A stretch of 21,092 nt of DNA, from positions 1-21,092 of the IMG/VR virus record IMGVR_UViG_3300030099_002376. One strand, given 5' to 3'. The position numbers and the translations under genes were made by a program. The notes under the pieces are model-generated. The model was given only the letters and a program-made list of their open reading frames with translations. It ran no database searches and was not told the origin of the DNA. This document shows positions 5,714-13,258 of the stretch, piece by piece. The DNA comes from a virus. Position 1 is the first letter of the stretch, and every line of letters starts with the position of its first letter.

Positions 5714-5808
5714 CAACACAATACTTTTTTTGTTTGAGGACAGAAAATACATATAAGCCACACAGCCAGAAATTTTTTATTTTTTATTTTTTTGCATTCA
5801 AATTTAGT

Positions 5809-5894
5809 GTCCTCAGCGTCCTCAAACGTCCTCAGTTCAAGTATACTTGAGAAAAACTGCCCTGAATTGAGGACAACGCGAGGACAGTGAGGAC
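5809..5894. repeat. symmetric GAGGAC iteron array around a 14-bp palindrome
   Basis: GTCCTCA at 5809-5815, 5818-5824 and 5828-5834; palindrome TCAAGTATACTTGA at 5837-5850; then TGAGGAC at 5868-5874, CGAGGAC at 5879-5885 and TGAGGAC at 5888-5894. A seventh copy is at 5735-5741. Units within each arm are 9-11 bases apart, about one helical turn, so a protein would meet them on one face of the DNA. The rightmost unit covers the place where a -35 box would sit relative to TATATA at 5915. Confidence 0.85.
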
Positions 5895-5982
5895 ATTTCT
5901 GTAGAGAAAACCCCTATATAGAACTGATTGATAAAAAATATTTCTTGGATTAGTTTGTGATAAACATACAAATGAGGATCGT

Positions 5983-7761: not shown

Positions 7762-7800
7762 CGACGGCGCGCCGTCGCGCCACGGACCGAAGGTCCGTGG
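7762..7800. repeat. GC-rich palindrome and adjacent UUCG-capped hairpin
   Basis: CGACGGCGCGCCGTCG (7762-7777) followed after two bases by CCACGGACC-GAA-GGTCCGTGG (7780-7800). On the minus strand the second stem is closed by cUUCGg. No T-run follows on either strand, so a simple intrinsic terminator is not supported. Confidence 0.75.
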
Positions 7801-7916
7801 CAAACAAACATGTGTGCGCTAGCACTCCATTCAAAACAATAGGACCCAAGACCTTGTGTCGTGGGTCACATAGAGTATCCGAAGGATTCTATTTGACAGT
7901 CGACTAAGCGGTAGAA

Positions 7917-8800: not shown

Positions 8801-9097
8801 TTAGTATGGGATCTCATCATCGAGCAGGTCTTCGACACTCTCGACAACTTTTGGTTTGACTTTGTATTTGACCACCTCGTCAAACTCACTACTGGTGTAC
8901 TGACCTTCAGTTACTAGATCACGTCCGACACTACGTAGCATGTCGCGAATCTGCCTGTGCAACTCCAGCAGAGAACTGTACTTCTGCCAGTCCTCCCCAT
9001 GTTCGACCATGAGTCCGTCCAGGTCCTTCAGTTCCCTGATGGTGAACCTGCATGAGATCTCAGTTGATGATAGATCGGTATAACCAATTTTAGCCAT
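8801..9097 (-). CDS. hypothetical protein, 98 aa
   Basis: Excellent AGGAGG six bases upstream of ATG 9097, preceded by an A/T run. The protein is mostly helical (ELKDLDGLMVEHGEDWQKYS, then LLELHRQIRDMLRSVGRDL) with a mixed-charge tail ending DDEIPY. First gene of the small minus-strand cluster 9097-7950; its promoter must lie in or near the structured region 9100-9250. No family recognised. Confidence 0.8.
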   Translation of the reverse strand: MAKIGYTDLSSTEISCRFTIRELKDLDGLMVEHGEDWQKYSSLLELHRQIRDMLRSVGRDLVTEGQYTSSEFDEVVKYKVKPKVVESVEDLLDDEIPY

Positions 9098-9241
9098 AAT
9101 AGCCTCCTGTAAAAAAAATTAAAATGAAACGACCACACACAGAATAACCGTGCCAGCCGTGCCTCAGTCTTTCCCCTGAGCAGGACCGTGTGTCAAAAAT
9201 CGTCCTCCAGTATGGACGACCGTCAAGAAAGACCTGTGCAA

Positions 9242-9285
9242 AGAAGTGTCGTAGCGTCCACATGCGTTGACGCAACGATACTTCT
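9242..9285 (+). other. hairpin within structured region
   Basis: AGAAGTGTCGT 9242-9252 pairs with ACGATACTTCT 9275-9285 (11 pairs, one of them G9248-U9279), then an A-A mismatch, then GCGT 9254-9257 with ACGC 9270-9273 and a 12-base loop. Confidence 0.75.
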
Positions 9286-9317
9286 CCTTTGTTTCCGAGG
9301 CTAAGCTCTATGCCATC

Positions 9318-9361
9318 GTTTCGTCCCATGTAAAAGAGTGCGAAGCCCCATCGGACGAAAC
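9318..9361 (+). other. hairpin within structured region
   Basis: GTTTCGTCC 9318-9326 pairs perfectly with GGACGAAAC 9353-9361 around a 26-base loop. A short hairpin (CTCC/GGAG with CAG/CTG, 9361-9381) follows directly. Confidence 0.65.
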
Positions 9362-9450
9362 TCCAGTGTATTACCTGGGAGTGACCGTCTTTCTTGCATT
9401 TTTTATACGCTGTTCTGAACAGGGTTAGACCTGTGGTCGGCCCGCACGGT

Positions 9451-9456
9451 TATAAT
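9451..9456 (+). promoter_or_regulatory. perfect TATAAT box upstream of the three-way junction
   Basis: TATAAT with only a weak TTAGAC at 9425-9430 (20-base spacer, longer than ideal). A start near 9463 would put the first base of the three-way-junction closing stem about nine bases into the RNA. A second TATAAT with the same CGGkTATAAT context lies at 9913-9918. Confidence 0.4.
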
Positions 9457-9471
9457 GTGTGTTGTTGTTTG

Positions 9472-9608
9472 ATACCCGATGCCCGCGCAAGAACTACCCA
9501 GCCGGGGGGCCAACATCTGCAATCCATACACAACGGTCGGCTGGAAGTTCTTAGGATGATTCGGAGTCGTCTTCCGAATTATCCGGCGCGGAATAAGACA
9601 TCGGGTAT
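9472..9608 (+). ncRNA. three-way-junction RNA element, 137 nt
   Basis: Closing stem ATACCCGATG 9472-9481 with CATCGGGTAT 9599-9608 (10 pairs); after an asymmetric internal loop, CCGCGC 9483-9488 with GCGCGG 9586-9591. The junction opens at once into arm A (AAGAACT 9489-9495/9546-9552, then CCAGCCG 9498-9504/9538-9544 plus G9505-U9537) and arm B (9554-9566/9572-9584, 13 pairs including two G-U, five-base loop). Single bases at 9553 and 9585 are the only junction spacers. About 44 base pairs in 137 bases is far beyond chance and the G-U pairs favour the plus strand. No known family recognised. Confidence 0.68.
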
Positions 9609-9648
9609 ACGATTGAAAGACAGACGCCGTAGACGTGAACTTCAAACA

Positions 9649-9733
9649 TGACTGCTTTGACTCAGAATAATCATTCGCCGCCCTGCTGACATAAGCCAAG
9701 GCATGATTATTCTGAGTCATTAGCGAGCAGTCA
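9649..9733 (+). repeat. long inverted repeat / extended hairpin
   Basis: A perfect 17-bp inverted repeat, 9658-9674 with 9703-9719 (TGACTCAGAATAATCAT and its complement), enclosed by an outer 8-bp stem TGACTGCT 9649-9656 with AGCAGTCA 9726-9733. The 28-base loop has GCC/GGC and GCT/AGC pairings. Forms an extended hairpin in RNA or a cruciform in DNA; it has no T-run and is not a terminator on the plus strand. Confidence 0.9.
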
Positions 9734-9762
9734 CAAAGAAATGCTTCGCGTCTATCAAGGAT

Positions 9763-9793
9763 ACTTAATCGTGGCTCGATGCCTCGATTAAGT
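9763..9793 (+). other. 12-bp hairpin within structured region
   Basis: ACTTAATCG 9763-9771 pairs with CGATTAAGT 9785-9793; a T-T mismatch; then GGC 9773-9775 with GCC 9781-9783 and a five-base loop. The T-T (U-U) mismatch is better tolerated in plus-strand RNA than A-A would be on the minus strand. Confidence 0.75.
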
Positions 9794-9831
9794 AGGGGTT
9801 ACTGTTCCCTGGCGCAACGGTGCAAGGTGCG

Positions 9832-9878
9832 AGTCGACATGTGCACCCCCCCGTAGAACGGGTAGCTGCGTGTCGACT
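9832..9878 (+). other. hairpin within structured region
   Basis: AGTCGACA 9832-9839 pairs with TGTCGACT 9871-9878; inside, GCA 9843-9845 with TGC 9867-9869 and CCCGT 9850-9854 with ACGGG 9858-9862 around AGA. Confidence 0.7.
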
Positions 9879-9899
9879 GTCTATAAAACATGGTATTTC

Positions 9900-9993
9900 A
9901 AATTCATTCGGGTATAATTTCATTGCACTTGTGTGCGGCAAACAACGGGTCCCTATGGCCCAGGAAAAATTGTGGGTGTAAATTCATTTGGGT
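9900..9993 (+). repeat. 14-base direct repeat upstream of the late operon
   Basis: AAATTCATTCGGGT at 9900-9913 and AAATTCATTTGGGT at 9980-9993, 13 of 14 identical, 80 bases apart in the leader of the first late gene. The first copy runs into TATAAT (9913-9918). Possible activator or late-promoter element; two copies only. Confidence 0.5.
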
Positions 9994-10027
9994 TTGTTGT
10001 ACAGTGATCTGGAAAGCAGGGTTTTGT

Positions 10028-13000
10028 ATGGCGAAACGATACTATAACAAAAATGATCCCATGTATTATATACCACCGAGAATGCGGGGTTTAGCCACTG
10101 ATGTTGGTATCTTTGGTCGTGTAGCATCTGACAATATTCTAGGTTTTCTTGACAATTATTTTCTTGGTAATCGATTTGATGACGACTATGAATCGACGGG
10201 CGAGATGCTTGGGACCGCGTTTCGGGAACAGCCTATTGAGACAGGCAAGGCCCTTGGCACTGGGATCTACGAGGCTGGCAAGGATATATACGAAGATCCT
10301 AAAGGGGCTTTTGATACTGCGCTTGAGGGGCTTGAGGGAGTTTTTGACAGGTTAAATACGCCTTATAATCAGTTAGATTTATCGACGGAGGAGGCGCAGC
10401 GTCAGAGGGCCGGGGATTTAGCAATTTTTGGCGAGGCTCTTAGTGGGACTGGCATAATAACCAAGAGTTTGGCTAAGGTAACCAAGAATCAGTTAAAGAA
10501 AAAAGTCATTGAGGAGAACCCTGGTTTAAACCAGGATCAGGTTAATTCGATTGTTGAGGACAGGGGTTATGATCCGAGTACTTATATTTCACCTCAACTA
10601 GATCCATTTAGAGATGTGTATGATCCGGGGGACGGTGATTTCATTGGTGATCCGACATCGGAGATAGATCAGGCGTACAATCGTGGTGAGTTAGTTCCGA
10701 TTGTTACCACGGCTGACGGTCCACCGGATACGTTAGACGAGGACGATTTATTTGCTGGCTTTGATGAGCCGCCTGATGTTGACGAGGACGAATTAAGGAT
10801 TCGTAGAGAAAACGAGGCCGACGCTGTAGGTATAGATGCGGCGTACATGGGTATGGAGCCGCCTGTGGATATGAACGATCCGGCTCCCCGGATTATAAAC
10901 CCTGCTCTTCTTGATGCTGAACCCTCTATGAATTATTTAACTGATGCTAGATCCGGTCAAGAGCTTAGTTTGCCGTATGGTGAGGCACAAACTCAAATGG
11001 TTGATATAGTGGGTAACGGCTATGATAGTTTTACAACGCAAAACATAGCTAATTTTCCTACGGCAATGATAATTAATGGTGAGAGAGTTGATGTTCAACC
11101 TTTTACAAATCTTGATGAAGACACGGTAAGACTCAGAACGATCAGAGACGTAGGCGATAGATATGTTATTGGTTACCAGGATGTGGATAGTCGAGGTCGG
11201 GATGTTTACACTGGCGAACAGCTTGAGGGGGCTACCGAAATTGACGACTTGGTGAACACGTTGAGGGAAAGGTTTGACAATATTGAAAATGACACAACGT
11301 ATGGCACCAATACTAACCAAGTTATGAATAACTCTGTAAGGGAGTGGATGGAAAGAATTGAAACCAATTCTCTTGGGGACGAAACACCGTTTTACGAATA
11401 TGCGGTTATACCTCCTAACTATACTTATGAAGACAATGCTATTAATGTATTGCAGTTTACCAAGGATTATTTACAGTCTAGAGGTTTGAGTAGAGACCAG
11501 GCGGGTATAGTAGCTCTTCAGATAAAACGTCGGGCCAGAGAGAATGAAAACCGTCGGGCCATACGTGCAGAGCAAGAATACGGGGATTATGAGGGAGCCG
11601 CTGCGTATTATGACGAATACGATCCGGTGATTACTGGTGAAGGTTATGATCCTGCGAACCCAGATACTGATTACGTGCCAGAATTTGATGAGGCTGCTTA
11701 TAATCAATCGCGTTATATCGACCGCGCTGGTGGCTATAATCAACCTGGATATGAAAGTTTTGCAGAGCAAATAAACATAGATTTGACTGCTAAACAAAGA
11801 GAACCTTTGGAAATAGAGGCTAGTGATGTTAGTTTAACGGGAGGTTCGAGTGCGTTAAGCAGTAAGTTGGACGATGCCCTTGACGATTTGATGAAGACTC
11901 AGACTAAGTTTCCTAGTCTTAATCAACTCATGAAAACTTTGGAAAACAAATACGGGATCAAAGAAGCCGAGTTTGAGGCTCGGAATATGGGCAGCATGAT
12001 TGCAGAATTTGGAGATCAGCCTATTAATTTAAAAGATATAAGTCCATTTGGTTTAGATCCATTTGTTGTTCGCACATTGGACGGTGCCGATGTTTCTTAT
12101 AGAGATTATTTTACCAAGGGTGCTACAAACTACAAAGAGACCCTGATAACTTTAAAAAACCCAAGTCTTCTTAGTCTGGGTGCCGGGGACAACAAACACT
12201 ATCAATACGCTCAAACAAAAATGCAAGCTCCTTTGGTTGTTCATATGCGAACTGGAAACTTTCCTATGGCTTCTAAACCTGGGGAGAATGTTAAAAAGAA
12301 AACTTTTCACTTAGGTGAGATACAAAGTCAGGGCACGCAGGACGCTACTATATCTCGTAAGCTTCGAAGGTCTGTGGAACAGTTTACGGAGGACTTGTTA
12401 AATCCATTTGCTGACGGAAAGTTTGTCGGTCTGTATGGAGAAACCAAACCGTTTGATATTGCAGATGTTCTTGAGGATCTGGACAAGGTCAGGGTTTTGG
12501 AAGATAAGATTGAAACTCTTGATGGTTTAAATAATCAGTATCGAATACGCAGCAGAAGATCCCGCTATGAGGATGAAAACTATGATATTCGTTTAAGACA
12601 AATTGATAAAGCACAGGCTGATGTACAAGCCATAAAAGACAAATACATGGTTTTTGATGCAGAGACAGGACGCACCGATGGATCTAGTTATCTCGATGAG
12701 ATGGAGCCTGGTTTTAGAGAAATACTTCAAGAACAGGGACTAATCAAAAAGAATGGCAGTTTTAAAATTAATTCTTTGAACTCGGCCACTGATCTTCACT
12801 CGTTAGTTGTAAATGCTCTTAATGAATCGGAAAGAATTAATGTAGACGACATGGGCGTTGGTTCTTTGTTTAACCAGAAACAAATTTTACCCTTGGCTAT
12901 AAAAGAATCTTTACAACAAGCTGCAAATTCTGATTCTGATTTTTTTACTCTAGGTTCACCGGAAATGGTTAAGAAGATGACTTTTGGAGAAATGGAGGGT

Positions 13001-13258
13001 CAAGAAGAATATTATGGTAAGTTTGTCCCAAAGGCTTTCGACAAAGTTATGGAGCAGCTTGAAAAACAAAACGATGTCAAGTTACCAAGATTATCGGAGC
13101 AGATTATAGAAACTTTTGACGATGATGGTAAAACACTCATTGAACAAAAGGTTCTGGGTATTGAGATCACGGATGAGTTACGTGAGGTATTCAAGTCTGG
13201 AAAGGTAGAGGCATTTCGCAAGGGCGGCTTAGTTACCTTGGCAAAAGAGGTATTATAG
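10028..13258 (+). CDS. large putative virion/polyvalent-type protein, 1076 aa
   Basis: The frame opens at 9890, but residues before MAKRYYNKNDP have odd composition and no ribosome site; ATG 10028 follows GCAGGG. The first 130 residues are helical with small-residue/acidic repeats (TGKALGTGIYEAGKDIYEDP), then a long acidic, proline/aspartate-rich middle. From about residue 690 the sequence resembles a domain I know from large phage polyvalent proteins: NYKETLITLKNPSLLSL, then LVVHMRTGNF and HLGEIQSQGTQ near 760, and a C-terminal EEYYGKFVPKAFDKVMEQLE with LGIEITDELREVFKSG near 990-1055. Such proteins can be carried in the capsid and injected. Placement just before packaging genes fits a virion component. 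Role uncertain. Confidence 0.82.
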   Translation: MAKRYYNKNDPMYYIPPRMRGLATDVGIFGRVASDNILGFLDNYFLGNRFDDDYESTGEMLGTAFREQPIETGKALGTGIYEAGKDIYEDPKGAFDTALEGLEGVFDRLNTPYNQLDLSTEEAQRQRAGDLAIFGEALSGTGIITKSLAKVTKNQLKKKVIEENPGLNQDQVNSIVEDRGYDPSTYISPQLDPFRDVYDPGDGDFIGDPTSEIDQAYNRGELVPIVTTADGPPDTLDEDDLFAGFDEPPDVDEDELRIRRENEADAVGIDAAYMGMEPPVDMNDPAPRIINPALLDAEPSMNYLTDARSGQELSLPYGEAQTQMVDIVGNGYDSFTTQNIANFPTAMIINGERVDVQPFTNLDEDTVRLRTIRDVGDRYVIGYQDVDSRGRDVYTGEQLEGATEIDDLVNTLRERFDNIENDTTYGTNTNQVMNNSVREWMERIETNSLGDETPFYEYAVIPPNYTYEDNAINVLQFTKDYLQSRGLSRDQAGIVALQIKRRARENENRRAIRAEQEYGDYEGAAAYYDEYDPVITGEGYDPANPDTDYVPEFDEAAYNQSRYIDRAGGYNQPGYESFAEQINIDLTAKQREPLEIEASDVSLTGGSSALSSKLDDALDDLMKTQTKFPSLNQLMKTLENKYGIKEAEFEARNMGSMIAEFGDQPINLKDISPFGLDPFVVRTLDGADVSYRDYFTKGATNYKETLITLKNPSLLSLGAGDNKHYQYAQTKMQAPLVVHMRTGNFPMASKPGENVKKKTFHLGEIQSQGTQDATISRKLRRSVEQFTEDLLNPFADGKFVGLYGETKPFDIADVLEDLDKVRVLEDKIETLDGLNNQYRIRSRRSRYEDENYDIRLRQIDKAQADVQAIKDKYMVFDAETGRTDGSSYLDEMEPGFREILQEQGLIKKNGSFKINSLNSATDLHSLVVNALNESERINVDDMGVGSLFNQKQILPLAIKESLQQAANSDSDFFTLGSPEMVKKMTFGEMEGQEEYYGKFVPKAFDKVMEQLEKQNDVKLPRLSEQIIETFDDDGKTLIEQKVLGIEITDELREVFKSGKVEAFRKGGLVTLAKEVL

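Follow-up and report, generated by a model that had tools for sequence, protein, structure and literature searches.

A covarying, densely folded, probable RNA module upstream of the late genes in marine phages related to cultured SAR11 phages

Results and Discussion

The gap between the leftward genes and the late genes of a marine phage was found to hold a module whose fold is conserved across diverged phages by compensatory evolution. On balance, we favor the interpretation that this gap encodes a giant non-coding plus-strand RNA, free and stable, which is transcribed from near positions 9098-9126 and presents invariant loops. An earlier note on this DNA had suggested a candidate giant phage RNA, possibly of a new class, and the suggestion was supported by the present analysis. 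The module probably represents a new class of giant phage RNAs, akin to GOLLD and ROOL and a member of neither, because its fold is preserved by matched mutations, it matches no known family and, in nearly identical relatives, unrelated folded RNAs take its place entirely.

The phage and the locus

The analyzed DNA (the window) was a stretch of 21,092 nucleotides, IMG/VR record IMGVR_UViG_3300030099_002376, and represents part of the genome of a marine tailed phage. The large terminase of this phage shared 58% identity with that of Pelagibacter phage HTVC027P, a cultured SAR11 phage to which the module-bearing phages are related, and 61% identity with that of phage 023Pt_psg01. The leftward genes of the window reach up to 9097 and the rightward late genes begin at 10028, with the gap in between. 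The locus is bounded by a leftward gene of 98 aa (8801-9097, minus strand), which was present in all close relatives with 81-100% amino acid identity and had no match in Pfam or PHROG. Next to it lies a short A+T-rich spacer (9098-9126) that includes the RBS of the 98-aa gene. In the alignment, a conserved TATAGCCTCCTATAAAA-like anchor in this spacer lay at the left edge of every module type. The spacer is likely to provide room for a plus-strand promoter; no sigma-70 match was found within it, and neither a promoter nor a terminator was recognized at the module edges.

The variable RNA module spans approximately 9127-9794, and 9795-10027 is a separate constant leader, which is common to phages with other modules. 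The folded interval had previously been drawn at 9121-9889; its portion within approximately 9127-9794 was retained as the RNA module, but the interval also took in a part of the constant leader (9795-9889). The constant late leader (plus strand) was 92-97% identical among phages carrying the module types A, B and C described below, and it contains a hairpin at 9832-9878. It was also observed that two related repeats, ATTCATTYGGGT, are located in this leader at 9902-9925 and 9982-10005, 80 nt apart, and have counterparts in the relatives L039 and L041. These repeats are candidate phage late promoters or operators. The first late gene (10028-13258, plus strand) encodes a protein of 1,076 aa, for which no match was found in Pfam or PHROG. 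This protein is mosaic among relatives, high-identity blocks being separated by unrelated acidic stretches.

Folding strength and the lack of coding capacity

The gap had been described as densely folded and free of credible ORFs, and both descriptions were confirmed. Region 9098-9900 was folded along with dinucleotide-shuffled controls, which folded much worse: the z-score was -12.2 for the plus strand and -9.1 for the minus strand, and none of the 20 shuffles was equally low. The module alone gave -16.0 (plus) and -10.9 (minus). When the 21 kb were tiled in 600-nt segments, those over the gap reached -13.0, and those outside it ranged from +1.4 to -4.1 on either strand. Of 47 gaps taken from terminase relatives, most scored above -5, and all module family members tested gave plus-strand values of -11.6 to -16.8. 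The predicted fold of the window comprised ~19 helices of at least five pairs, exceeding the eight or more helices noticed initially. Elsewhere in the window, palindromic hairpins were observed between genes at 5807-5896 and 7771-7805. They lay in or near the next best folding segments (z about -3 to -4) and produced weak scores against unrelated Rfam models.

Among close relatives (L010; L015 and L017), the ORFs in the gap, 9394-9651 (plus) and 9403-9720 (minus), acquired stop codons within the frame, and they were not maintained in L041. Since these stops interrupt the ORFs in relatives that are 94-97% identical, the gap was considered to be non-coding and its reading as a coding region was rejected.

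Distribution among relatives

Close relatives were collected from IMG/VR by scans with the flanking proteins, and diverged lineages by a terminase scan and a scan for an invariant loop. The module was carried by four close relatives, with 94-97% identity, and by three more distant lineages (L041, L117/L118 and L119), always as one copy per record, the contigs being fragments, and always between a leftward gene and the late genes. The family is narrow, amounting to four lineages in IMG/VR; no further relatives were recovered by a broader profile search based on the 98-aa protein or from the INPHARED phage and PLSDB plasmid collections. The L041 module was about 70% identical where blastn aligned it. 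The plus-strand z-scores of the diverged modules were -16.4 for L041, and -16.8 and -11.6 for the L117/L118 and L119 lineages.

Among the close relatives, identity was 95-97% in the gap, 85-99% in the adjoining 98-aa gene (74-97% at third positions), and only 35-80% in segments of the first late protein. Compared with L017 and L015, the module (94.8-95.3%) was more conserved than the neighboring gene (85.5-87.2%; third positions 74-79%).

Some other candidates were rejected or set aside. L021, which matched the constant-leader pattern, was a chance match with an unrelated sequence and a z-score of -0.4. Similarly, 14 matches of AAAGAGTGCGAAGCNCCA in bacterial genomes were taken as chance, since little beyond the pattern itself matched. 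The gap at the same position in HTVC027P (L027:12177-12724) was moderately structured (z -4.5) and had no similarity to the module, and that of 023Pt_psg01 scored -6.2. A terminase-related contig contained a 677-nt gap (L083:2945-3621, minus strand) with several strong hairpins and a z-score of -10.9, and its sequence looks unrelated. Another region, the 1,064 nt upstream of the terminase at L109:1084-2147, scored -7.6 and may hide short genes.

Compensatory evolution of the fold

Covariation in homologous gaps, which had been put forward as a check of the RNA hypothesis, was strong. RNAalifold was applied to five sequences, stemming from few lineages, and predicted 219 pairs, 42 of which carried compensatory double changes. 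The corresponding number was 10.3 ± 2.6 for shuffled controls and 2-10 when the partners were slid. The paired state was retained in 97.4% of the cells of this structure. Because the counting drew on the very sequences that had yielded the structure, an independent test matters. The window and L041 were therefore folded separately, and 125 of 193 mappable pairs were found in common; of those, 28 showed changes at both positions and 6 at a single position. Further, in domain III, compared across seven sequences (L117 and L119 aligned poorly in domain I, and there is no single whole-family alignment), 13 of 32 pairs were double-changed and 99.1% of cells were paired, as opposed to about 40% or less when the partners were slid. 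In 0.96 Mb searched, a covariance model of domain III scored 102-113 bits on the family members, the only other hits being on their mirror strand.

The strand under selection

The strand was examined by using helices from folds without G-U pairs, which were required to occur on both strands. Across seven sequences, the single mismatches in these strand-neutral helices were G-U in 29 cases and A-C in 2 (p = 5e-7, an optimistic value given that the sequences are related). Due to this asymmetry, the selected molecule was concluded to be a plus-strand RNA. The same argument had been made in the earlier note from four G-U pairs of the window; all four were located in predicted helices, and the asymmetry extends to the relatives. 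The pair 9248-9279 was G-U in the window, A-U in L010 and G-C in L015 and L017, and 9558-9580 was G-U in the window and U-A in L041. The pair 9566-9572 was G-U in all five sequences, and 9505-9537 in four of five, L041 being gapped.

An element acting as DNA, with its inverted repeats extruded or single-stranded as in a replication origin, a packaging site or a recombination hot spot, would be in line with the strong fold of both strands and with the position of the locus as a recombination point between divergent gene blocks. However, DNA symmetry predicts equal numbers of G-U and A-C mismatches, and L039 does without the module. Such an element was regarded as improbable, and DNA-only symmetry was rejected as the main reading.

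Very little weight was given to a minus-strand RNA, which would be the long leader of a leftward operon with the 98-aa gene as its first gene. The minus fold is also far below the shuffles and is even the better one in L119, where the G-U to A-C count taken alone was even (2:2). Nevertheless, the overall asymmetry and the lower z-score on the plus strand in all the other members speak against it, as does the domain III model, which scored 102-113 bits in the sense direction and 19-32 bits in the other, although it was built from the sense strand.

Anatomy of the predicted RNA

The module is about 670 nt in the window and reaches about 1.2 kb in relatives. Read as a plus-strand RNA, it begins with domain I (9127-9470), a long interrupted stem of 59 pairs formed by 9127-9199 and 9399-9470. 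The base of this stem is A/C-rich on the 5' strand and G/U-rich on the 3' strand, and the domain includes internal hairpins; 16 pairs with double changes were counted here (helices 2-10). Domain II (9472-9608) is a stem with two hairpins, the invariant ATTCGGAGTCGTCTTCCGAAT being among them. Its stem is CCGCGC/GCGCGG in the window and CCGGGC/GCCCGG in L015, and 5 pairs of the domain (helices 11-14) were double-changed. Domain III (9627-9760) is a long hairpin with a core at 9649-9733, an invariant tip GCCGCCCTGCYGACAYARGCCAAGGC and a rewritten stem. Domain IV (9762-9794) is a hairpin with the conserved tip GGCTCGATGCC; its stem was largely replaced in L041, where 8 of 13 pairs were double-changed and the tip was kept, and the whole hairpin was not present in L117. 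Additional 3' hairpins without a counterpart in the window were found in L015, L017, L117 and L119, amounting to ~130 nt in L015 and L017.

In the proposed model, a promoter near 9098-9126 would drive transcription either during the late phase or shortly before it. The RNA would run the same way as the late genes and comprise at least four folded domains. As a free and stable molecule, it would use its long stems to hold up a few invariant loops, which may bind proteins, other RNAs or additional copies of the same RNA, similarly to GOLLD and ROOL. The module RNA is probably trans-acting and made in the late direction.

Comparison with known RNA families

Few giant phage RNAs are known, GOLLD and ROOL among them, and they have no established function. 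No GOLLD, ROOL, OLE or HEARO match was obtained for the module in Rfam 15, for GOLLD and ROOL even at E ≤ 10. Rfam gave chance microRNA and snoRNA scores only, and the assignment to a known RNA family was rejected.

GOLLD RNAs are giant (many over 800 nt), ornate, encoded by phages and prophages, found also in marine metagenomes, and composed of one conserved and another variable region (PMC12286853). The module is likewise giant, ornate, phage-borne and marine, with conserved and variable regions, but it differs in lacking an Rfam match at E ≤ 10 and in being replaced in its entirety between near-identical flanks. Additionally, GOLLD usually, although not universally, carries a tRNA or lies near one, whereas there is no tRNA near the module, and ARAGORN detected no tRNA genes in the 21 kb. 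GOLLD is a homo-oligomeric RNA cage. ROOL is about 660 nt long, phage-encoded and without a known protein partner (PMC12286853). The module is similar in size and also phage-encoded; however, it had no Rfam match to ROOL, its predicted fold of long stems and invariant tips is different, and it is not close to a tRNA island, whereas in phages ROOL usually, but not universally, is. OLE and HEARO are comparable as large structured bacterial RNAs and differ in that the module did not match them in Rfam.

The phi29 pRNA, a DNA-packaging RNA of 174 nt that serves virion assembly in phi29-type packaging, is a phage RNA too, but the phage of the window has a TerS/TerL pair of the ordinary type. Regarding the general kind of large structured phage ncRNAs, the module is long and non-coding and has a covariation-supported fold. 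No earlier description of it was found in the literature searched, and the main text of the HTVC027P transcriptome study makes no mention of non-coding or intergenic RNA (PMC12753301). The module adds a covariation-backed family in phages related to cultured SAR11 phages.

Exchange of modules at the locus

Three types of modules were found at the same address: type A in the window, type B in L013 and type C in L012, L016 and L018. Between the type A module of the window and the type B and C modules, blastn detected no similarity; the latter two folded strongly as well, with z-scores of -9.8 for type B, and -7.1 and -7.4 for type C. L015 (type A) and L016 (type C) carry unrelated modules, when their 98-aa genes are 99.7% identical and their leaders 96.7% identical. 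In L039, with a terminase 87% identical, there is no module and just the constant leader. The site was therefore regarded as a cassette locus, because left flanks that are 99.7% identical carry different modules and one relative carries none. At the start of all three types, an A/C-rich 5' strand pairs with a G/U-rich 3' strand, hence a remote common origin is possible. Type B also bears a ~130-nt 3' piece seen in type A relatives.

The main rival of the free RNA is a late-operon 5' leader of great length, which would act in cis on late transcripts in a riboswitch-like manner, by antitermination or by translation control. Indeed, the module lies directly upstream of the late genes on the same strand, with no terminator recognized between them. 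On the other hand, a separate and more constant leader with its own repeats is placed between the module and the gene, and it remains where modules were swapped or are absent, as in L039. To our knowledge, the length and fold complexity of the module are far beyond those of known phage leaders, and we consider a leader role unlikely.

The presence, absence and replacement of types at one address would also be expected from a selfish or mobile RNA-rich insertion without a phage function, such as a repeat element or an intron remnant. The probability of this was judged to be slight in view of the compensatory evolution across diverged phages, the single copy per record, the absence of an Rfam intron or repeat match and the lack of any protein encoded by the module.

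For the preferred free plus-strand RNA, the swapping speaks against an invariable part in the replication of the phage itself and in favor of a variable partner. It suggests that the partner differs between hosts, for example a host defence or a competing phage. We tentatively proposed, as one possibility, that the locus is an exchange site where phages swap whole, sequence-unrelated giant structured RNA cassettes while the flanks stay constant, as is the case for protein anti-defence or exclusion genes. If true, these RNAs would act, as a class, as specificity or counter-defence factors made of RNA. The natural swap series (A, B, C and none, with near-identical flanks) provides a comparative handle on function and links it to a factor that differs among hosts or competitors.

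In type C, the swapping takes place at the level of single hairpins too. One apical hairpin was exchanged for an unrelated hairpin between L012 and L016, the remainder being about 96% identical. It was also observed that the type C RNA of L016 (5160-6000, minus strand) presents the loop GCCUAUC on two hairpins with different stems, at gap positions 86 and 342. This loop is the exact complement of an unpaired GAUAGGC toward the 3' end, at gap position 524, and a kissing or pseudoknot contact between them is possible.
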